A DNA stretch of 64,000 nt from Pricia antarctica (GTDB taxonomy: Bacteria > Bacteroidota > Bacteroidia > Flavobacteriales > Flavobacteriaceae). Location: NCBI RefSeq assembly GCF_900101815.1, contig NZ_FNAO01000007.1, positions 62,001-126,000 of the forward strand. The letters run 5' to 3'. The position numbers and the translations under genes are program-made. How positions within the stretch are numbered: the stretch's first letter is position 1; each line of letters opens with the position of its first letter. Below the pieces are notes generated by a model. The model was not told the DNA's origin. It was given only the letters and a program-made list of their open reading frames with translations, and made no database searches. Positions 29,372-45,915 of this stretch are shown one piece after another.

Positions 29372-29986
29372 TTAATCCAGAAATTGAGATTCATTCGCAC
29401 TTCGGCAACTAAAACCTTTTCTCCCGAAAAAAACAAGCAAAAACGTTTGATACTCCGACCCTAGTTTTTTGCGTAGTACGCCAAAAGCTTTGGTAAGGTG
29501 CGCCTCTACTGTCTTGATGGAAACTTTAAGGTATTCTGAAATTTCAATATTGGTCAATCCCTCTTTTCTACTTAGGAGCAAAACCTCTTTACATCTTGGC
29601 GGTAGGTTTTCAATTTCGAGAGTTATTCGTGTCATCACTTTTTCCCAAGAGATATCATCGTGTTTTTGTACCGCTTTGTCCAAAGCCTCGAAATACTTCT
29701 GTTCCAACACCATGGTCGATCGGTTTTTCTTGTACTGGTTGATAAACTGGTTGAAAACTGACTTGAACAAATAGTTCTGAAGGGAGGTTGTGATACGCAG
29801 GGTTTTGCGCTTTTCCCACGTATTAAGAAAAACATTTTGAAGAATATCCTCTGCCAAAGTATGGTCGTTCGTCAATGTCAGGGCATACCCGAACAGTCTG
29901 CGGTTGTAAAGGTCTATTAGATGTATGAACGCCTTTTCTTCTCCATTTGTTAATCGTTCGATCAATTCTATATCTTCATTATCCAT
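29372..29986 (-). CDS. ECF RNA polymerase sigma factor (SusCD-associated)
   Basis: 204 residues. Region 2 includes FIHLIDLYNRRLFGYALTLT and HTLAEDILQNVFLNTWEKR; region 4 includes LPPRCKEVLLLSRKEGLTNIEISEYLKVSIKTVEAHLTKA. This is the Bacteroidota ECF subgroup that pairs with FecR anti-sigmas. It is divergent from the fecR gene (124 bases between starts), next to a SusC with an STN domain, so it should drive the susCD-phosphoesterase genes. The C-terminal tail after about residue 180 (FFGRKGFSCRSANESQFLD) is not typical. The 3' end almost touches ccsBA. Confidence 0.93.
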   Translation of the reverse strand: MDNEDIELIERLTNGEEKAFIHLIDLYNRRLFGYALTLTNDHTLAEDILQNVFLNTWEKRKTLRITTSLQNYLFKSVFNQFINQYKKNRSTMVLEQKYFEALDKAVQKHDDISWEKVMTRITLEIENLPPRCKEVLLLSRKEGLTNIEISEYLKVSIKTVEAHLTKAFGVLRKKLGSEYQTFLLVFFGRKGFSCRSANESQFLD

Positions 29987-30075
29987 CGTCTACCATTGCT
30001 TTAAACACGATAAATATACTGGGACAAAATGTAATTGTGAAAGAAAAGTCAACTAAAAGTTAGGGTTATGAAAAT

Positions 30076-30083
30076 TAGCTTTG
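30076..30083 (+). promoter_or_regulatory. -7 promoter element TAGCTTTG
   Basis: TAGCTTTG, 26 bases before the fecR ATG, matches TAnnTTTG. This suggests the housekeeping sigma factor reads fecR. Confidence 0.45.
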
Positions 30084-30109
30084 TCTTATCAATATAGACC
30101 AGGCTAATT

Positions 30110-31288
30110 ATGCTCGTCCGAGACACAGAAAATCGAATTGTCAAATATCTTCTGAACGAAGCAACAATTCAAGACTTGGATTTTTTATCCGATTGGATCT
30201 TGGTCGGGGACAACGAGCGGATTTTCGAAGAGTTCGCCCAGTCGCACTATGAAGCCACCACCGTTATGAACGAACCGGATAAGCATAAAATCAAGGAAGT
30301 CCTGATGCGGAGGATGAAGAAGGATAAAAACATCTTCCAACGCCAAAAAATTCGTTCGCTGTTGAAATATGCCGCAGTAGGGATGGTTTTCGTGACACTT
30401 GGTTATATTTTCCATGAGAACCAAACAAAAGACCCTGTTTCGGGTCTACTCGTACCCAAAGAAGAAGCGATAACCATCACCTTAGAAAACGGTACCGTTG
30501 AAACCCTAGATCCGTCGGCGAATAAAAATGTAATGGATTCACAAGGAAACATAATCGGGAACCAGAAAAGGTCTAAACTTACTTATAGTGGGTCTACTTC
30601 CAGTTTTGCCGAGTACGGCAATTCCAAAACTTTAGTTTATAACACCATAAAAGTGCCCTACGGCAAACGCTTCGACGTGATATTGTCCGACGGCACCCAT
30701 GTTTTTTTGAACTCCGGTACGTCCTTGCGTTATCCGGTGCAGTTTCTAAAGGGACTTGGTCGAAGAGTATTTTTAACTGGGGAAGCCTATTTCGATGTGG
30801 CGAAAGACAAAGAACATCACTTCACGGTTCAAGCCGACGAACTGGACATCGAAGTGTTGGGCACCAAGTTCAACGTTTCCCATTATCCCGAAGACACCAA
30901 TATCAATACCGTTTTGGTCGAGGGATCGGTTGAAATCAATATAAAAAATGAGAAGGATAAAAGCAGGGCAGGTATTTTGTTAGAACCAGGCTTTAAGGCC
31001 GAATGGCGAAAAGTGGGCGACGATATCTCTATCGAAAATGTTGATACCGAAATCTACACCGCTTGGGTACAGGGAAAACTCGTGTTTCGCAACACCCCAT
31101 TTCGAAAAATCCGACAGGCCTTGGAACGCAAATACAACATAACTATCAAGAACAGGGATAAAGATTTGGACAAGCAATTGTTCGATGCAACCTTTGATAT
31201 CGAGACTATTGAAGAAGTTTTGGAATCGTTTAATAAAAGTTATGCTATTTATTACAAAATAAATAACAATAAAGTAATAATCGATTAA
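30110..31288 (+). CDS. FecR family anti-sigma factor
   Basis: 392 residues. A cytoplasmic N-terminus (1-83) would bind the sigma factor; a membrane segment lies at about 84-101. The periplasmic FecR domain follows, with VPYGKRFDVILSDGTHVFLN, LRYPVQF, GEAYFDVAKDKEHHFTVQ and VLGTKFNVSHY, and a C-terminal DUF4974 segment from about 320 (FRNTPFRKIRQALERKYNI). The STN domain of the downstream SusC should contact the periplasmic part and release the sigma factor when substrate is bound. It stands between the sigma gene and susC, in the standard order for these systems. Confidence 0.94.
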   Translation: MLVRDTENRIVKYLLNEATIQDLDFLSDWILVGDNERIFEEFAQSHYEATTVMNEPDKHKIKEVLMRRMKKDKNIFQRQKIRSLLKYAAVGMVFVTLGYIFHENQTKDPVSGLLVPKEEAITITLENGTVETLDPSANKNVMDSQGNIIGNQKRSKLTYSGSTSSFAEYGNSKTLVYNTIKVPYGKRFDVILSDGTHVFLNSGTSLRYPVQFLKGLGRRVFLTGEAYFDVAKDKEHHFTVQADELDIEVLGTKFNVSHYPEDTNINTVLVEGSVEINIKNEKDKSRAGILLEPGFKAEWRKVGDDISIENVDTEIYTAWVQGKLVFRNTPFRKIRQALERKYNITIKNRDKDLDKQLFDATFDIETIEEVLESFNKSYAIYYKINNNKVIID

Positions 31289-31345
31289 TATAAATTAAAC
31301 AGCTTATGGATAAATTTGAATAGCTAAAAATCAATTCAAAAAGAA

Positions 31346-31377
31346 AAATCGGAAAATGCAGTCACATTTCCCGATTT
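31346..31377 (+). promoter_or_regulatory. Stem-loop in the fecR-susC intergenic leader
   Basis: AAATCGGAAAATG (31346-31358) pairs with CATTTCCCGATTT (31365-31377): 12 of 13 positions pair, one A-C mismatch, 6-base loop. No T-run follows, so it is not a standard terminator. A second CCGATTT at 31385-31391 could compete for the same 5' arm. It lies 41 bases before the susC start. Confidence 0.5.
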
Positions 31378-31418
31378 GGTAAAACCGATTTAAATAAAAC
31401 CGATAACACCACTTAATT

Positions 31419-34400
31419 ATGAAAAAACGCTTTAAATTTTGGGATATTGCATGCAGTCTTCCTAAACTAAGCCGGAAAATGAAACTCACTTTATTGCTTA
31501 CCATAATTTCTATGTTTCAGATTCAGGCGAACACCTATTCGCAAAACAAGAAAATCACGCTGGATATGCCAGATGCGACGGTCGAAGAAGTGATTCAGGA
31601 AATAGAATCCCTTTCAGATTTTAAGTTTTTATTGAATAGAAGGGATGTCGATATACATAGGGAGGTTTCCATAAAAGTTGAGAAGGAAAAAATCGCTACT
31701 GTGCTATCAGAACTATTTGCTGGTACTGACGTCGATTATGAAGTTTTGAAGAAACAGATAATTTTAAGGAAGGATGCTAAAAACACAACTCCGACCAAAG
31801 TGTCGAAAACTTTGCAGCCTAACAATACGGCAATACAATTTCAAGTCTCGGGTACCATATCCGATGCCAATGGAGCACCTCTACCCGGTGCGAACATTCT
31901 AGAAAAAGGTACGACAAACGGGGTACAGACCGATTTTGACGGTAACTTCTCCATTGAACTTTCCGACGAAAATGCAGTTTTAGTGGTCTCTTACATCGGT
32001 TTTGCTGAAGAGGAGGTAGCTGTCAATGGACAGACTACCATTAACGTGCAACTGGAGGAAAGTGCGCAAGGATTGGACGAGGTTGTTGTTGTCGGGTATG
32101 GTACAACAAACAGGGAAATGCTCTCTACGGCGGTTAGTACTGTCGAAACTGCCAACATTGCAGAACGCCCAATAGCCGATGTTTCTTCCAGTTTGCAAGG
32201 TCTTAGTCCCGGTCTAAACGTAACTCAGTCCACGGGTAAAGTTGGTGATGAACCAAGAATCAATATCCGCGGGTTTACGTCTATAAATGGTGGCCAACCA
32301 TTAATATTGATTGATGGGATTGAAGGCAGTTTGAGTAACCTAAATCCAAACGACGTAGCATCCATTAGTGTATTAAAAGATGCAGGAGCGGCTGCAATAT
32401 ACGGTGCCAGAGGTTCTTTTGGGGTAGTTTTAGTTACCACAAAAGATGCTAAACAGGGTAATATTCAAGTTAATGTCGGTGTCACCACGGCCATCAGTTC
32501 ACCGACCAACAATACCGATTTTGTTACTGACCCTTACCAAGCGGTATCTATCGTTGATGAAGCTTTTAGGAATAACAGCGGGGCTTCGTATACCGGTTAT
32601 ACGGAAGCTGATATGGCCGAGCTTTTAAAGGTCTCCCAAAATCCGTCACTGGCAAGGGTCATTGTCGATCAAAGGAATGGACGGGATCAGTATGTGCATT
32701 ACGGGCATACGGATTGGTGGAACTATTTTTTTAGAAAAAACTATCCATCGCAAATCTATAATGCGTCAATTTCTGGAGGTTCAGAAAAAATAAAGGCAAA
32801 TTTTTCTTATAGAAACTACAGGTCTACAGGTATCCTCAAAGTTCAGGATGATACGTATAAGAAATACAATCTAAGGGGGAAATTGGATATTGAGGCTACA
32901 GCTTGGATGACGTTTTCCAATAACATGCAATATAATAGTTCAGCGGATTTGGAACATGGCGGAAGCCAATACGGAAGCTATGGAAGGCCTTGGGGCAGCT
33001 TGATCTGGGTTCATGCCTTACCTTCTTATGTGCCCGTAAACCCGAACGGCGGAGCTCTCTGGCGTACAGAGTTGAACAACTACACAATTGGGGACGGGGT
33101 ATATGCGGGGTTATTGCAGGGTACTTCAAAACAAGTAACGAATGCCGACGAATTTTCGAACATTGCTTCTGTTGAGATAAGGCCTTTTTCTTCAACTACT
33201 ATCAATATGAACTATGCTATACGTAGAAATAATTTTAACCGGTATCAGCGTTCCACTAGAATTCCATATTCCATTTACCCCGAAGAGATAGGGCTCTTGG
33301 GCAACGATTATTTGAACGAGTACCGTACCGAAAGCAGCTATGATGCCTTTAATATTTATGGAGAGTACAGAGGGTCGTTCGGCGACCATAGTTTAAAAGT
33401 AACGGCCGGTTTTAACCAAGAGACATTTTTGACAAAAAGTATAGAGGCAAGCAAACAAAACCTGATTTCCAACGACCTGAATTCATTAGGATTGGCAACT
33501 GATAATCCCGAGGCGGGCGGCAGTGCTTCCGAATGGGCACTACAAGGTTTGTTTTATCGACTTTCTTATGATTTTAAGGATAAGTATCTTTTGGAATTCA
33601 ATGGAAGATACGATGCTACCTCACGATTCCCGTCCGATTACCGTTGGGGCTTTTTTCCATCTGTCTCCGCAGGATGGTTAATCAACAGGGAAGGTTTCTT
33701 CGGGGAATCCAAAAACCTAAATCTTTTTAAACTAAGGGCTTCCTATGGCTCTTTGGGCAATCAAAATATTGATGATTATGCGTATTATCCCACCTTACCA
33801 AACGGTACTTATAGTTATCCTTTGAACGGCACGCGTTTGAATTATATAGAATCGCCCGGTCTGAATCCCTCCGAAATTACCTGGGAAGAAGTCAGCACTT
33901 TGAACTTGGGAACCGATATTGCCATGTTCAATAACCATTTGACCATGAATTTTGACTGGTTCCAGCGCGATACCAAGGGTATGTTGGCCCCGGGCGCAAG
34001 CCTACCGAGTGTTCTTGGGACGCAATCCCCTCTGGAAAACGCTGCTGATTTGAGAGCACGGGGTTTTGAACTTTCTTTGGGTTACCAAGATTCATTTGAT
34101 TTAGATAATGACCCCTTCTCTTTTTCTATTACAGGAAATTTATCGAATTCCATAACTAAGATAACTAGGTTCGAAAATCCAAATAAAAGTCTTATAGACT
34201 TTTATGACGGTATGACTATCGGGGAGCTTTGGGGCTATCGAATCGAAGGCCTATTTCAGTCTGAACAAGAAATAGCCGACCATGCCGATCAGAGTTTTGT
34301 CTCTAATCGTATTTCATCTGGGGGTGGACTTAAGCCAGGCGACGTGAAGTATATAGATTTAAACGGGGACGGTTTTATCGGCGAAGGCGAAAACACGGTG

Positions 34401-34979
34401 AACGATCCCGGCGACAGGGAAGTTTTAGGTAACTCGGCACCCCAATATCTATATAGTTTTATTTTGGATGCCAAATGGAAAGGTTTTGATATTTCAGGAT
34501 TTTTTCAAGGCGTGGGTAAACAGGATTGGTATCCCAATTCGGATTCCCGGTTCTTTTGGGCTCAATATAACCGGCCCTACAACTCTTACATTAGAAAAGA
34601 TCTTGTTAACAATATGTGGTCACCGGATAATCCAGATGCTTATTTTCCACGGAACTATGGATATATTGCGTTGGGCGGTTCTTTGGAAAAAATAAACGAC
34701 AGGTATTTACAAAGTGTGGCTTATCTTCGGTTAAAGAACTTGACGATTGGGTACACCCTACCCGGAGGAATAATTTCAAAATCCCCTTCCACAAAGCTAA
34801 GGCTTTATCTCAGTGGGGAAAATTTGTTCACCTTTTCGCCTTTGACCGATTATATCGATCCAGAAGCGGCCAGTTCTTCCGTGAACCTTAATAGTCCATC
34901 GGCATCTTCCAACAGGAGTACGGCACAAGTAAATCCTTTTTCCAAAACATATTCCTTGGGATTAACCTTTCAATTTTAA
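31419..34979 (+). CDS. SusC/RagA-family TonB receptor with STN signalling domain
   Basis: 1186 residues. An extended signal sequence (1-41) precedes an STN/secretin-like domain at about 45-125 (KITLDMPDATVEEVIQEI and VSIKVEKEKIATVLSELF). A CarboxypepD_reg-like domain lies at about 146-225 (SGTISDANGAPLPGANILEK), a plug at about 230-345 (LDEVVVVGYGTT, VLKDAGAAAIYGARGSFG) and then the barrel, ending YSLGLTFQF. The STN domain marks a signalling receptor paired with the FecR just upstream. SusD is 12 bases downstream. The later genes encode phosphoesterases, so the imported compound is likely a phosphate ester or its breakdown product; this is inference. Confidence 0.95.
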   Translation: MKKRFKFWDIACSLPKLSRKMKLTLLLTIISMFQIQANTYSQNKKITLDMPDATVEEVIQEIESLSDFKFLLNRRDVDIHREVSIKVEKEKIATVLSELFAGTDVDYEVLKKQIILRKDAKNTTPTKVSKTLQPNNTAIQFQVSGTISDANGAPLPGANILEKGTTNGVQTDFDGNFSIELSDENAVLVVSYIGFAEEEVAVNGQTTINVQLEESAQGLDEVVVVGYGTTNREMLSTAVSTVETANIAERPIADVSSSLQGLSPGLNVTQSTGKVGDEPRINIRGFTSINGGQPLILIDGIEGSLSNLNPNDVASISVLKDAGAAAIYGARGSFGVVLVTTKDAKQGNIQVNVGVTTAISSPTNNTDFVTDPYQAVSIVDEAFRNNSGASYTGYTEADMAELLKVSQNPSLARVIVDQRNGRDQYVHYGHTDWWNYFFRKNYPSQIYNASISGGSEKIKANFSYRNYRSTGILKVQDDTYKKYNLRGKLDIEATAWMTFSNNMQYNSSADLEHGGSQYGSYGRPWGSLIWVHALPSYVPVNPNGGALWRTELNNYTIGDGVYAGLLQGTSKQVTNADEFSNIASVEIRPFSSTTINMNYAIRRNNFNRYQRSTRIPYSIYPEEIGLLGNDYLNEYRTESSYDAFNIYGEYRGSFGDHSLKVTAGFNQETFLTKSIEASKQNLISNDLNSLGLATDNPEAGGSASEWALQGLFYRLSYDFKDKYLLEFNGRYDATSRFPSDYRWGFFPSVSAGWLINREGFFGESKNLNLFKLRASYGSLGNQNIDDYAYYPTLPNGTYSYPLNGTRLNYIESPGLNPSEITWEEVSTLNLGTDIAMFNNHLTMNFDWFQRDTKGMLAPGASLPSVLGTQSPLENAADLRARGFELSLGYQDSFDLDNDPFSFSITGNLSNSITKITRFENPNKSLIDFYDGMTIGELWGYRIEGLFQSEQEIADHADQSFVSNRISSGGGLKPGDVKYIDLNGDGFIGEGENTVNDPGDREVLGNSAPQYLYSFILDAKWKGFDISGFFQGVGKQDWYPNSDSRFFWAQYNRPYNSYIRKDLVNNMWSPDNPDAYFPRNYGYIALGGSLEKINDRYLQSVAYLRLKNLTIGYTLPGGIISKSPSTKLRLYLSGENLFTFSPLTDYIDPEAASSSVNLNSPSASSNRSTAQVNPFSKTYSLGLTFQF

Positions 34980-34991
34980 AAAAATCAAGTT

Positions 34992-36731
34992 ATGAAAATT
35001 AAGCATATACTATCGATTGCGGCCCTTGCGCTGGGTTTATACGCCTGTAGCGATGATTATTTGGATAAGGAGCCCTTATCCGAGATTACAGCAGAAAATT
35101 TTTTCAATACCGAAGCTGATCTAAAACTGTATACCAATAGTTTTTACAGGATGTTTCCAAGCACTTCAATTTACGATGGGGATGCCATTACGGATAACAT
35201 CATCCAGAATGAATTAAGTGAAGAGATGAGGGGCGCCCGTTTGGTACCAACTTCCGGAGGAGGTTGGGATTGGGCCTATTTAAGGGATATCAACTTCTTT
35301 CTTCAAGAATATGAAAAATCCGAGGAGGAAAATGCCAAGGCGCATTATGGCGGTGTTGCCCGCTTTTTCAGGGCCTATTTTTATTTTGATAAGTTACAAC
35401 GTTTCGGTGCAATTCCTTGGTATGGTGAACCAATTGACCCAAAGGACTCCGAAACTTTGACAAAACCAAGGGATTCCAGACAATTTGTCGTTGATAAAAT
35501 TCTGGAAGATCTTGATTGGGCAATCGCAAACATGAGAGCGGAACAGAATGTGTACGAGATTACTAAATACACCGCGTTGGCCTTAAAGTCTAGGGTCGGA
35601 CTTTATGAAGGCACTTTTGAAAAATACCGGGGTATCGAAGGCTATGGGAAGTACTTAAACGCATCTGTAGCGGCTTCGGAAGAGTTGATCAATGACTCGC
35701 CCTATAAGCTCTATAGCAGCGGAAGCCCTGATGATGATTATAGGAACCTGTTCAATTCGCATGATGCCATAGCCGACGAAATAATTCTCTCGAGGGCCTA
35801 TTCAGAGACCCTGAATATTGGCCATAATGTAAATTACTATACTACAACCAGTTCCTATGGTAGGCCTGGAATGCCTAAAGACCTTGTAGATAGTTATTTA
35901 AATGCGGACGGTTCCCGCTTTACCGATCAGGCGAATTTTGACCAGATCTTCTTTACGGAAGAAGTGGCCGACCGTGACCCGCGATTGTTCCAAACGATAA
36001 GGACCCCCGGCTATACACGGAAAGGGGAAGCAATCGAACGTGCGCCCAATTTAGGAGCAACGGTTACCGGTTACCAGATTATTAAATATGTGACCGAGCC
36101 CGTTTACGATACCAATGGCCAGTCGATTACCGATTTGCCTTTGCTCAGGTTCGGTGAAACACTTTTGAACCATGCCGAGGCAAAAGCGGAATTGGGGACT
36201 TTGACCCAGGAAGACCTCGATAAATCTATAAACCTATTAAGGGCGCGGGTTGATATGCCCGGTTTAATACTGGATGCGGCCAATAGCGATCCTGATTCCT
36301 TTATAGCCGATCAATACGTAGGGGTAGTGGGCGCAAATAAGGGCGTCATCCTGGAAATTCGGAGGGAAAGGCGTATCGAGTTATATATGGAAAATTTTCG
36401 GTGGGACGACATTGTCCGCTGGAAAGCGGGCGAAACCTTGACCCAGCCCATTCGTGGCCTATATTTTTCCGGTCCGGGGGAATATGATCTTACAGGTGAT
36501 GGCGAAATTAACGTAGTATTATATGAAGGGGAACGACCGGACAATGTAATTACGGGAATCCAGTATTACCAATTGGAATCCGATACGTTTTTGGACAATC
36601 AAGGCTTAATAACGCCCCACCCCGATTATGAGAACAGGACCTTTGACGAAAACAAGGATTATCTCTATCCTATTCCAAGGGTAGAATTACAATTAAATCC
36701 GAACTTGGAACAAAATCCTGGATGGCAATGA
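34992..36731 (+). CDS. SusD/RagB-family outer-membrane lipoprotein
   Basis: 579 residues, with a lipobox ending at Cys19 (LYAC) followed by SDDYLDKEPLSEITAENFF, the classic SusD N-terminus. Later strings include FFRAYFYFDKLQRFGAIPWYG and the C-terminal IRRERRIELYMENFRWDDIVRWKAG and YLYPIPRVELQLNPNL. It is the full-length SusD type, unlike the shorter partner at 8252. It follows susC by 12 bases and overlaps the next gene by four (ATGA at 36728-36731), so translation is probably coupled with the phosphodiesterase-like enzyme. Confidence 0.95.
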   Translation: MKIKHILSIAALALGLYACSDDYLDKEPLSEITAENFFNTEADLKLYTNSFYRMFPSTSIYDGDAITDNIIQNELSEEMRGARLVPTSGGGWDWAYLRDINFFLQEYEKSEEENAKAHYGGVARFFRAYFYFDKLQRFGAIPWYGEPIDPKDSETLTKPRDSRQFVVDKILEDLDWAIANMRAEQNVYEITKYTALALKSRVGLYEGTFEKYRGIEGYGKYLNASVAASEELINDSPYKLYSSGSPDDDYRNLFNSHDAIADEIILSRAYSETLNIGHNVNYYTTTSSYGRPGMPKDLVDSYLNADGSRFTDQANFDQIFFTEEVADRDPRLFQTIRTPGYTRKGEAIERAPNLGATVTGYQIIKYVTEPVYDTNGQSITDLPLLRFGETLLNHAEAKAELGTLTQEDLDKSINLLRARVDMPGLILDAANSDPDSFIADQYVGVVGANKGVILEIRRERRIELYMENFRWDDIVRWKAGETLTQPIRGLYFSGPGEYDLTGDGEINVVLYEGERPDNVITGIQYYQLESDTFLDNQGLITPHPDYENRTFDENKDYLYPIPRVELQLNPNLEQNPGWQ

Positions 36732-37588
36732 AAAATATAATAGGTATCTTATGTCTCATTTGTGGTATTGTCGGATCTGCACAAAATACCGAAAAAAACC
36801 TGACGGTCATGACCTTTAATGTGAGGTATAATAACCCTGACGACGGCATTAATATTTGGGATAATAGAAAGGAATGGTTGACCAAGAGTATCCGGTTCTT
36901 TGAAGCAGACCTCGTTGGGGCGCAGGAGGTCACCTATTCCCAATTACAGGATATGGAGGCGTTATTGCCTCAATATGACCATGTGGGAGTCGGTCGGGAA
37001 GGTGGTAAAAAGGGAGAATTCACTCCTATTTTTTATAAGGAAGATCGTTTTGAACTTTTGGAGCACAATACCTTTTGGCTCTCGGAAACCCCGGAAAAGG
37101 TAAGTTCGAAAGGATGGGATGCCGCCCTGCCACGAATCGTAACCTGGGCAAAATTCAAGGATCAAAAAGGGGGCGAAGTTTTTTATTTTTTCAATACCCA
37201 TTTTGACCATAGGGGCCAACAGGCAAGAAAAAAGGGCGCGGAATTGATTGCAATGGAAATCAAGCGCATTGCCGGTGAAAATACGGTGGTACTGACCGGG
37301 GATTTTAATACACCTCCAGATTCCGACCCCTATACGGTATTGACGGACCATGCCCTAAAAGATCCATTTTCTATGCTGGATGCCGAGAATACATATGGTA
37401 CGAAATATACGACCAATGGTTGGGACATCGAGGCGGGGGAGGAACGCAATAGAATCGATTATGTTTTTTATAAAGGAAAACAAATAATTCCGATTAAGTA
37501 CCATGTGCTTGATGGGCAGCGGGGAAAGCGATTTATCTCGGACCACTTTCCGATACTTGTCGATTTTAAGCTCAATGCCGTGAAATAA
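36728..37588 (+). CDS. Exported endonuclease/exonuclease/phosphatase (EEP) family enzyme 1
   Basis: 286 residues from the ATG at 36728, which makes an ATGA overlap with susD; an ATG at 36722 would add two residues. Residues 1-19 are a signal peptide (GIVGSAQ). EEP catalytic motifs: MTFNVRYN (Asn31), GAQEV (Glu67), NTHFDHRG, LTGDFNTPPDSDPY, RIDYVFYKG and ISDHFPILVDF. The family includes DNase I-like nucleases, sphingomyelinases and inositol-phosphate phosphatases, and this one has the arrangement of the exported Bacteroidota group. Position in the susCD operon indicates that it acts on the substrate handled by that pair. Confidence 0.9.
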   Translation: MKNIIGILCLICGIVGSAQNTEKNLTVMTFNVRYNNPDDGINIWDNRKEWLTKSIRFFEADLVGAQEVTYSQLQDMEALLPQYDHVGVGREGGKKGEFTPIFYKEDRFELLEHNTFWLSETPEKVSSKGWDAALPRIVTWAKFKDQKGGEVFYFFNTHFDHRGQQARKKGAELIAMEIKRIAGENTVVLTGDFNTPPDSDPYTVLTDHALKDPFSMLDAENTYGTKYTTNGWDIEAGEERNRIDYVFYKGKQIIPIKYHVLDGQRGKRFISDHFPILVDFKLNAVK

Positions 37589-37617
37589 AGTTTGACGAAC
37601 GTCGTATATTACAAACA

Positions 37618-38445
37618 ATGAAATATCTATATCTAATCTTATTTTTCGGTACTATAGGTATCGCGAGCTTTTCCGGAATTTCAAAATGTTCCGGTTTTGA
37701 TGAGACCAATAACCGCTTACATGGGGAAGAACGGCCGCTATGGATTATGGCTTACAATATCCACCATGCCAATCCGCCTTCCACGCCCGATTCCATCGAT
37801 ATTCCGGCCATTGTCCGTACCATAAGGGCACAGAATCCCGATATTCTGGCCCTACAGGAAATTGATGCGAACACCAAAAGGTCTGGACGGGGTAACCAAG
37901 CGGATATAATAGCGGACAGCCTTGGTATGAATGTATTTTTCGGCAAGTCCATCGATTTTGAAGGGGGAGAGTATGGCGTCGCCATTCTGTCAAAATTCCC
38001 CATTTCGGAAGGAACGGTTTATAGACTTCCCACGGCGTCCGGCACCAATGGCGAAAAAAGAATTCTGGCTACCGTAAAGATAGCTTTGCCCAATAATAGG
38101 TTTATCCGGTTCGGAAGTACCCATTTGGATTCCCAAAAGGAGAATACCAATCGTCTTCTTCAAATAAGGGAAATACAGCGCATTGCCTCGGAAGACGGTT
38201 TGCCCATGATAATCGCGGGCGACTTTAATGCTCCGCCCAGCTCGGAGGTCATCACCATTTTGGACCAAGGTTTTAAAAGAACTTGTGATACCTGTCAACC
38301 TACCATTCCCGTGGACCATCCGGAAAAGACCATTGATTTTATCGCTTTTAGACCCGAAAATTCATTTAAAATAATTAATCATAAGGTTATTAATGAAACC
38401 TATGCTTCAGACCATTTACCTATTGTGGCGTTACTTGAACATTAG
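37618..38445 (+). CDS. Exported endonuclease/exonuclease/phosphatase (EEP) family enzyme 2
   Basis: 275 residues. A hydrophobic leader covers residues 3-22; a Cys at 24 could be a weak lipobox (ISKC), so secretion or membrane attachment are both possible. EEP motifs: MAYNIHHAN (Asn47), ILALQEID (Glu81), GSTHLDSQ, IIAGDFNAPPSSEV, TIDFIAFR and SDHLPIVAL. It is diverged from enzyme 1 and lies 29 bases downstream of it. Two different EEP enzymes in one unit suggest sequential or parallel cleavage of phosphodiester or phosphomonoester bonds. Confidence 0.9.
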   Translation: MKYLYLILFFGTIGIASFSGISKCSGFDETNNRLHGEERPLWIMAYNIHHANPPSTPDSIDIPAIVRTIRAQNPDILALQEIDANTKRSGRGNQADIIADSLGMNVFFGKSIDFEGGEYGVAILSKFPISEGTVYRLPTASGTNGEKRILATVKIALPNNRFIRFGSTHLDSQKENTNRLLQIREIQRIASEDGLPMIIAGDFNAPPSSEVITILDQGFKRTCDTCQPTIPVDHPEKTIDFIAFRPENSFKIINHKVINETYASDHLPIVALLEH

Positions 38446-38520
38446 CATATGATCATTTACTAAGCCATACGCTTGTACAAATCCTCCTTAAGTCCATGCC
38501 AACTTGAATTTTGACCCTAC

Positions 38521-39762
38521 ATGAACAAAAATCAAAAAATATCCCCAGAGAACAATGGCAGGAGAGGTTTTATAGGAAAGCTTTCTAAAGCTGCAATCAT
38601 GGGCGCCTCTCTGCCTTTGAACCCGGTCATTGCCATGCCCACGATTTCGGAAGGGAACGGGGGCGGTCCATCAGAGGATTTGTTTGAGCTGTCGACCGCC
38701 CCCTATCTTCAGAATTTAACGGAAAGTTCCGTAACTATACTCTGTATTACAAACGCCAAAGCACATAGTTGGATAGAATTTGGCCCGAAAACCCTTAATC
38801 TCAGAACAGAAACCCATTCCGACGGTTTCGTGCAGGCAAATAACAGTCTACACAAAATACAATTATGCGGATTACAAGCGCATACTACCTACAAATATAG
38901 AGTGGCGAGCAGACCAATCGTCAAATTTGACCCATACGACCTTGTCTTTGGAGAAACCGTATTTAGCAACATGTTCAGTTTTACTACCCCAGCTACCCAT
39001 GCGGATTCTGTTTCCTGTATAATTCTCAACGACATTCACGACCGCCCGTATTCTTTTTCAGATCTTCTTTCCCTATGTGGCGATTTCAAATATGATTTTG
39101 TAGCGCTAAATGGCGACATGTTCGATTTTCAGACCGATGAAAAGCAACTGATAGATCATTTAATTGAGCCATGCACAACACTTTTTGCCAGCGAAAGGCC
39201 TTTCCTAATGATAAGGGGAAATCATGAAACTCGGGGCAAATACGCAAGACATTTCAAAGATTACTTCACGTACAAGGATAATGAATATTACTTTTCATTT
39301 AAACAAGGCCCGGTGCATTGGATAGTTCTCGATACAGGGGAGGACAAAGAAGATAGTGCACCCGCTTATGGCGAAATCGTTTGCTTCGACCAATTTAGGG
39401 AGACACAAGCCATTTGGTTGGAAACGGAATTGGAGAAATTGGAATTCAAGGACTGTAAATATCGCGTCGTCCTCATGCATATTCCTGTATTCCATTCGGG
39501 AGATTGGCACGGCACTATGCACTGTCGGAAACTCTTCCATCCTATTTTCGAAAAACACGGGGTAGATGTGGTTATTTCAGGCCATACTCATACGTATGGC
39601 ATTCACCCGCCAAACAATGAACATAGGTATCCGATTATTATAGGCGGAGGGCCTAAAACAGATACTCGGACCGTAATTCAGTTAAAGGCCGACAACCGGC
39701 AATTACAACTAAAAATGATACGGGATGATGGTTTAGTGGTTGGTGAGTATAGTATTGATTAG
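38521..39762 (+). CDS. Metallophosphoesterase with purple-acid-phosphatase-type N-domain, probable Tat substrate
   Basis: 413 residues. The N-terminus has a twin arginine in NNGRRGFIGKLSKAAIMGASL, consistent with Tat export. A fibronectin-like PAP N-domain follows (TAPYLQNLTESSVTILC, about 55-150). Metallophosphatase motifs are complete: LNDIHD, ALNGDMFDF, RGNHETRGK, VVLMHIPVFH and SGHTHTYGI. The fold carries a two-metal centre for phosphomonoester or diester cleavage in the periplasm. It lies 75 bases after EEP enzyme 2 on the same strand. The Tat route would fit loading of metal before export. Confidence 0.88.
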   Translation: MNKNQKISPENNGRRGFIGKLSKAAIMGASLPLNPVIAMPTISEGNGGGPSEDLFELSTAPYLQNLTESSVTILCITNAKAHSWIEFGPKTLNLRTETHSDGFVQANNSLHKIQLCGLQAHTTYKYRVASRPIVKFDPYDLVFGETVFSNMFSFTTPATHADSVSCIILNDIHDRPYSFSDLLSLCGDFKYDFVALNGDMFDFQTDEKQLIDHLIEPCTTLFASERPFLMIRGNHETRGKYARHFKDYFTYKDNEYYFSFKQGPVHWIVLDTGEDKEDSAPAYGEIVCFDQFRETQAIWLETELEKLEFKDCKYRVVLMHIPVFHSGDWHGTMHCRKLFHPIFEKHGVDVVISGHTHTYGIHPPNNEHRYPIIIGGGPKTDTRTVIQLKADNRQLQLKMIRDDGLVVGEYSID

Positions 39763-45828: not shown

Positions 45829-45840
45829 GTTTACCTATTG

Positions 45841-45915
45841 GGTGGAAGACCGGTTTCGAACCGGCGACCTCTTGAACCACAATCAAGCGCTCTAACCAGC
45901 TGAGCTACAACCACC
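45841..45915 (-). tRNA. tRNA-His (GTG anticodon)
   Basis: The minus strand reads GGTGGTTGTAGCTCAGC onwards. The D-arm GCTC/GAGC, an anticodon stem CTTGA/TCAAG with loop TTGTGGT (anticodon GTG) and a T-arm GCCGG-TTCGAAA-CCGGT are all formed. An encoded extra G precedes position 1, as usual for tRNA-His, opposite C73. CCA is not encoded. Pairs 5-68 and 6-67 of the acceptor stem are both T-T, the remaining pairs being normal. Confidence 0.93.

Follow-up and report, generated by a model that had tools for sequence, protein, structure and literature searches.

A SusCD locus of Pricia antarctica with two exo/endo/phosphatase-fold enzymes and a metallophosphoesterase, and the partial conservation of its parts

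We analysed a locus of Pricia antarctica that lies in a window of 64,000 nucleotides of contig NZ_FNAO01000007.1 (GCF_900101815.1); gene coordinates are given as positions in this window. The locus encodes an extracytoplasmic function (ECF) sigma factor, a divergent FecR-type anti-sigma factor, a SusC importer with an STN domain, a SusD lipoprotein, two enzymes of the exo/endo/phosphatase (EEP) fold, EEP1 and EEP2, and a metallophosphoesterase (MPE) with a twin-arginine translocation (Tat) signal. The locus is real, coherent and partly conserved, and a phosphoester role for it is likely. The analysis showed the gene content, order and families, the metal-site residues of the enzymes, the conservation of a core, the enrichment of phosphoester-cleaving enzymes around the SusD clade, and a signalling module and promoter-like element shared within the genus. 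With modest confidence, we favour the explanation that this SusCD locus is a variant devoted to organophosphates, in which a small phosphoester-bearing molecule would be imported and dephosphorylated stepwise in the periplasm under the control of STN, FecR and the sigma factor.

The gene list, strands and spacings given by the first-pass annotation of this DNA agreed with both the open reading frames and the Pfam assignments (Table 1). Checked on the sequence, the intergenic distances along susC-susD-EEP1-EEP2-MPE were exactly 12, -4, 29 and 75 bases, EEP1 overlapping the stop of susD by 4 bases. The absence of glycoside hydrolases, lyases and sulfatases was also borne out, as a Pfam scan detected no carbohydrate-active enzyme (CAZyme) in the seven locus genes or in six flanking genes, and by its CAZyme content this is not a polysaccharide locus. 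The sigma factor scored 122.8 bits against NCBIfam TIGR02985, under the cut-off of 126.4. Among the 26 SusD-like_3 places of the window's genome, the window locus was the only one with an EEP gene within 10 kb, which argues that the association of SusD with EEP is not due to chance.

Table 1. Features of the locus, in window positions.
Feature	Position	Strand	Basis
ECF sigma factor, Sig70_bacteroi1 type	29372..29986	-	Pfam PF04542/PF08281 above cut-off
Promoter-like element GTTAGGGT-16-GTCTTA (30 bases) before fecR	30059..30088	+	Conserved before fecR in L112, L124, L184, L192
FecR-type anti-sigma factor	30110..31288	+	PF04773 (FecR) and PF16344 (FecR_C) above cut-off
SusC TonB-dependent importer: N-terminal STN, then CarbopepD_reg_2, Plug, barrel	31419..34979	+	Pfam; TIGR04056 854 bits
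STN-bearing N-terminal part of SusC (residues 21-135)	31479..31823	+	Common to unrelated SusC barrels in the genus
SusD surface lipoprotein	34992..36731	+	PF07980 164.4 bits, PF14322 49.2 bits; clade placement
EEP1, EEP fold, Bacteroides mannosyl-6-phosphatase type	36728..37588	+	PF03372 (Exo_endo_phos)
EEP2, EEP fold, related to PGAP2IP/Cwh43 C-terminal domain	37618..38445	+	PF03372 72.6 bits, PF23226 42.6 bits, both above cut-off
MPE, calcineurin-like phosphoesterase with twin-arginine signal	38521..39762	+	PF00149 (Metallophos) 70.3 bits

A scan of genome contigs for the best 80 of 224 EEP2 relatives left 79 loci, and seven of these showed the order susC-susD-EEP1-EEP2 (L005, L006, L012, L015, L016, L017 and L026). 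They came from Salinimicrobium, Salegentibacter, Gelidibacter and Leeuwenhoekiella, plus one metagenome-assembled genome that supplied both L015 and L026; L006 and L113 are apparently the same place, and L015 ends 229 bases past EEP2, its downstream side being unreadable. In the core loci outside the genus, SusD was 75-79% and the SusC barrel 77-80% identical to those of the window, and a congener also carries the four genes. A search by SusD, independent of EEP, covered 397 genomes of the family and gave six others with a SusD of at least 67% identity. In all six, EEP1 directly followed SusD; EEP2 was present too in two (G080 and G257), and MPE was found within the unit in none. Beyond the seven loci of the EEP2 scan and the congener, susC-susD-EEP1 was seen in four more genomes. 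Because of these counts and those of the EEP2 scan, we take the core to be susC-susD-EEP1, often with EEP2, to which MPE has been added. Conservation of the complete order susC-susD-EEP1-EEP2-MPE, a search for which the first-pass annotation had proposed, was not observed, since no second case was present among the loci examined; the five-gene unit was thus ruled out as a conserved system, and conservation is limited to susC-susD-EEP1(-EEP2).

A tree of 48 SusD proteins united the 13 rows linked to EEP1 in one group (100/100), which was adjoined by L142-L144 (96/91), and all of them fell within a clade of 28 rows (100/99). Twelve of the 13 sister loci to which SusD alone had led contained phosphoester or phosphodiester enzymes of the EEP, GDPD, MPE, NPP, NAGPA or PHP kinds. 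These were EEP in L118, GDPD in L119, L121 and L145, NAGPA in L120, L146 and L148, PHP with NAGPA in L122, NPP with EEP in L123, MPE with EEP in L142, MPE in L144, and EEP with GDPD in L147; the assignments in L120 and L147, and part of those in L121-L123, rest on BLAST or phmmer. EEP, MPE or GDPD genes occurred in eight of the 13 sister loci; in the window's genome, two of the 25 SusD_3 places apart from the window locus had such a gene within 10 kb (Fisher p 0.0009). Two of the 22 ungrouped SusD rows of the tree, L041 and L075, are also placed within the clade and have EEP2 together with a PHP or PF04185 enzyme; as it was EEP2 that had led to them, they are not counted among the 13. The predicted SusD model had a predicted local distance difference test (pLDDT) score of 76.2. 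As separate observations, the sister-clade SusCD loci L120, L122, L146 and L148 have AP_endonuc_2 and NAGPA (phosphodiester glycosidase) genes, with DUF218 and BACON protein genes also present in L146 and L148, and elsewhere in the window's genome (L149; G000 C17, ~443.9-447.1 kb) a SusD-like_2 protein gene is followed by one for a PAP-N metallophosphoesterase.

EEP1 and EEP2 were ~25% identical over the aligned part and are assigned, from their sequences, to different EEP subfamilies. The PDB matches of EEP1 were 3g6s, an uncharacterised protein of B. vulgatus (E 2.5e-67), and 4c1r, the mannosyl-6-phosphatase BT3783 (E 1.1e-45), so that the nearest characterised structure is a sugar-6-phosphatase. 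Its metal-site residues N31, E67, D192, N194, D272 and H273 were invariant in 8 sequences, and these residues and the similarity together make EEP1 a predicted sugar phosphatase of BT3783 type. BT3783 has a role in yeast mannan use; unlike it, the window locus has no mannan enzymes, and 3g6s is closer to EEP1. EEP2 passed the PF23226 cut-off (42.6 versus 27 bits), yet PF03372 scored higher, and its metal-site residues N47, E81, D202, N204, D265 and H266 were invariant in 50 sequences. The AlphaFold2 model of EEP2 (mean pLDDT 89.3) had the EEP fold and was closest to 4ruw (Z 29.8), then to 3mpr, 3l1w, 3g6s and 4c1r (Z ~27), nocturnin and TDP2 (Z ~26) and bacterial sphingomyelinases (Z ~22); a fold shared by a predicted model and these neighbours shows no function. 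One study found that the EEP cluster with Cwh43 and PGAP2IP includes phosphodiesterases that strip phosphocholine or phosphoethanolamine from position 6 of N-acetylglucosamine (GlcNAc) (Fossa et al., PMC10704324). EEP2 resembles this subfamily in passing PF23226 and in that all six named metal-site residue types are invariant in it. The GlcNAc-phosphodiesterase group is mostly clostridial, unlike EEP2, and the likeness is one of family and residues; this kinship is a lead to a possible function of EEP2, not a test of it.

The third enzyme, MPE, has the motifs DxH, GD, GNHE, MH and GHTH and a twin-arginine signal with RRGF at residue 14, from which Tat export is predicted. It had been called purple-acid-phosphatase-like, a description that is not supported in the strict sense, the likeness being confined to the N-terminal domain. 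Purple acid phosphatases are defined by a tyrosine ligand in motif II, GDxxY, and motif II of MPE is GDMFD, at residue 198, without this tyrosine; a literal GDFKY at 187, 11 residues upstream of motif II, is not conserved in the homologues of L124 and L142. Against the N-terminal domain PF16656, MPE reached 23.7 bits, under the 30-bit cut-off, and its homologue in L125 passed with 31. A strict purple acid phosphatase was ruled out by this motif II and the weak N-terminal domain. Outside the window, eight MPE homologues were found, six from one search and two from another; SusC or SusD genes lay near six of them, and in four an EEP gene was adjoining or next but one (L124, L126, L127 and L142). 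In L142, which belongs to a different family within the class, the order is sigma-FecR-SusC-SusD-MPE-EEP2, with a SusD of the window's clade at 53% identity. MPE was found in none of the 79 loci of the EEP2 scan and in none of the 11 core loci with a readable downstream side, and the homologue of the congener G080 sits at another SusCD locus, L124. From these comparisons, MPE is an add-on in the Pricia antarctica strain, and members of its family have similar neighbours elsewhere.

As in TonB/STN-FecR-ECF cell-surface signalling, the three partners (sigma factor, FecR and STN-bearing SusC) are all present at the locus. Unlike the usual case, the module in this genus is apparently joined to an STN-less SusC lineage. 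It consists of the sigma factor, the element, FecR and the N-terminal 100-135 residues of SusC, and was found in the window, L112, L124, L184 and L192. The sigma factor of the window was 77-80% identical to those of L112, L184 and L124. Its STN part was 71-77% identical to those of L112, L124 and L184 (98-115 columns), with the barrels of L124 and L184 at 27-28%, and 80% identical over 101 columns to that of L192, with a barrel at 28%; between module loci with SusC barrels just 25-30% identical, STN parts were 65-80% identical. The exact GTTAGGGT-16-GTCTTA pattern occurred twice in the whole genome and its reversed control not at all, and the element is likely the target of the ECF sigma factor. 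Phosphoesterases were present in three of the four distinct SusCD loci under the module, namely window/L112, L124 (MPE, NPP and EEP) and L192 (a PhoD-like and a sulfatase-family enzyme). That sigma/anti-sigma control belongs to the core, as the first-pass annotation implied, was not supported outside the genus: in the closest orthologous units of other genera, SusC lacks STN and no sigma or FecR gene is linked, and orthologous SusC proteins with barrels 77-80% identical gave no STN match and were ~75-95 residues shorter. The absence of STN in L005, L012, L015, L016, L017, L026 and L113 was established by BLAST plus length (1089-1113 versus 1186 residues), because BLAST missed L115 and L116, both long enough for STN; L114-L117 are equipped with FecR and sigma genes of their own. 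As regards the close orthologues of other genera, sigma/FecR was ruled out as a core component. The simplest reading of these sequences is that the signalling module was grafted at the STN boundary onto an STN-less SusC lineage in the genus; alternatively, STN may have been lost elsewhere and regained.

SusCD loci with phosphomono- and diesterases that are induced by low phosphate have been described as phosphate utilisation systems (PUS) (Lidbury et al., PMC8115612). That study reports PUSI-PUSIV and PusCD1-6 of Flavobacterium, of which PUSI and PUSIII include ECF sigma or FecR genes, regards PusD as polyphyletic, and has in its table a single EEP, Fjoh_0074, an orphan with weak change. The window locus likewise has a SusCD pair co-located with phosphomono- or diesterase genes in place of CAZymes; the PUS enzymes are PI-PLC and PhoA, and here they are EEP1, EEP2 and MPE instead. 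Thus, of the earlier proposal of an undescribed system to capture and dephosphorylate phosphoesters, the word undescribed has to be given up, as SusCD loci with phosphoesterases replacing CAZymes, some with ECF sigma/FecR, are already described as PUS in PMC8115612. What is supported is a SusCD importer coupled to phosphoesterases, in a SusD clade with mostly phosphodiester-enzyme sisters. A PUSI-like locus, L174, contains ECF sigma, FecR, SusCD, PI-PLC-C1 and metallophosphoesterase genes, and the similarity of the window SusD to the SusD of the PI-PLC loci L174 and L175 was marginal (best BLAST 34% over 115 columns). Because of this, we regard the window locus as a variation on PUS with different enzymes and, apparently, a different importer clade; the SusD clade and the enzyme set are where it seems to differ, and the kind of system is already described. 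Among the open-licence papers listed for SusCD with EEP or glycerophosphodiesterase genes, no description of susCD-EEP-EEP was found, PMC8115612 being the relevant paper. L175 itself is a PUS-like locus of the window's genome (G000 C15, ~496.5-505 kb; L175:9520-17604), with SusC, SusD, PI-PLC-C1 and an alkaline phosphatase/GDPD_2 fusion.

Under the organophosphate explanation, SusD and SusC would bind a small molecule with a phosphoester and bring it in, the likeliest cargo being an oligosaccharide or polyol head group decorated with a phosphodiester; candidates are glycans that bear phosphocholine/phosphoethanolamine or glycerophosphate, and inositol-phosphate glycans. Within the periplasm, EEP2 would open the phosphodiester and EEP1 would then take the remaining phosphate off the sugar or polyol, and the Tat-exported MPE may add a further phosphomono- or diesterase in the Pricia antarctica strain. 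Loaded SusC would signal through STN to FecR and free the ECF sigma factor, which would act at the promoter-like element and raise expression of fecR-susCD-EEP1-EEP2-MPE. The substrate, the order of cuts, the location of the enzymes and the induction are all inferred.

The locus could instead be a phosphate-starvation locus of the PUS kind, switched on by PhoB-type control or low phosphate and scavenging phosphate from phosphodiesters of many kinds, among them lipid head groups and nucleotides, with no special carbon substrate. The published loci, which in PMC8115612 combine SusCD and phosphoesterases, lack CAZymes and in some cases have ECF sigma/FecR, speak for this, as does the presence of L175 in the same genome; the distance of the window SusD from the SusD of the PI-PLC loci, and two specific EEP enzymes, one of sugar-phosphatase type, that look more substrate-specific, make it a possibility that we hold doubtful. 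An accessory role in ordinary glycan use, with the phosphate as a decoration of the imported glycan and the main work done by glycosidases encoded elsewhere, would fit the naming of the EEP1 relative BT3783 as a mannosyl-6-phosphatase, the MPE/EEP relatives in the glycosidase loci L126 (GH101-MPE-EEP-GH35-GLAA) and L125 (GH101/GH97-MPE), and EEP2 relatives with GH89. This is rather unlikely, no glycosidase having been found among the neighbours tested in the window locus, L112, L005, L006/L113, L012, L016, L017 and L026. Scavenging of nucleic acids or nucleotides was suggested by the nucleases within the EEP fold and by TDP2 and nocturnin as structural neighbours of EEP2, but no nuclease is among the solved EEP1 relatives, and the sister loci have GDPD, NAGPA and NPP rather than nucleases; nucleic acid is not favoured as the substrate, and we consider this explanation improbable. 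A further alternative concerns MPE, which could be an unrelated neighbour of a real two-EEP system. Its absence downstream of the readable core loci and the position of its G080 homologue at L124 agree with this, while the 75-base gap between EEP2 and MPE, two genes on the same strand, where no terminator-like site was found, and the recurrence of MPE-EEP pairs in SusCD loci, in L142 with the same SusD clade, led us to give it the smaller share of our belief.

Several observations weigh against the organophosphate explanation itself. L143, in the SusD clade, has no phosphoesterase among the tested genes, and neither has L184, which is under the same signalling module and has a PepSY protein after SusD. 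The control for the sister-locus enrichment was small and from one genome, and was typed by Pfam, the clade being typed by Pfam or BLAST; of the eight EEP/MPE/GDPD sister loci, two (L123 and L147) were typed by BLAST or phmmer alone, and one control SusD has a GDPD gene at ~11 kb, which the 10-kb limit left uncounted. The EEP fold also covers nucleases, and the substrate and the activities are predictions. Moreover, 20 of the 79 EEP2 loci had GFO/IDH/MocA and DUF1080 genes, a glycoside context in which no further phosphoesterases were found, and 37 had no SusC/SusD match; for this reason, EEP2 alone is no marker of phosphodiester import.

Among the same 79 loci, 42 had a SusC or SusD match, 11 ROK, six GH89, four NagB-PIG-L and one a choline-type BCCT transporter. 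The neighbours from GlcNAc catabolism (ROK, GH89, NagB-PIG-L) and the GFO/IDH/MocA ones thus place the EEP2 family in contexts of amino sugars and of other glycosides; this is compatible with a phosphodiester on a glycan and does not prove it. L009, L011, L013 and L059 had SusCD with EEP2, PKD-propeller proteins, ROK and the alpha-N-acetylglucosaminidase GH89, and L011 additionally NagB-PIG-L and a metallophosphoesterase-propeller; these are possible phospho-GlcNAc glycan loci.

The flanks of the window locus are unrelated to it and encode ResB/cytochrome c assembly, a PSCyt1 protein, a Cys/Met PLP enzyme, a PIG-L-type deacetylase and a histidine kinase. A scan of the locus for sigma-70-type promoters and terminators gave results no better than shuffles. 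The sole tRNA gene detected in the window was tRNA-His at 45840-45914 (minus strand).

A wider idea, which we advance tentatively, is that this SusD clade is specialised for phosphodiester-linked glyco- and polyol-conjugates across Bacteroidota families, with interchangeable EEP, GDPD, NAGPA, NPP, PHP and MPE enzymes that would free the head groups of glycans from zwitterionic, glycerophosphate or inositol-phosphate groups, both halves being used, and that within the genus a single ECF-FecR-STN module, coupled to several SusC proteins of this kind, would form a phosphoester regulon. The conserved two-EEP unit and its distinct SusD clade would extend SusCD import beyond polysaccharides and the published low-phosphate loci. 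A concrete SusD lineage with its enzyme pairs is gained for the substrate screening of phosphodiester-bearing glycans, and the signalling module of sigma factor, promoter element, FecR and STN has apparently been exchanged among SusC proteins with unrelated barrels.

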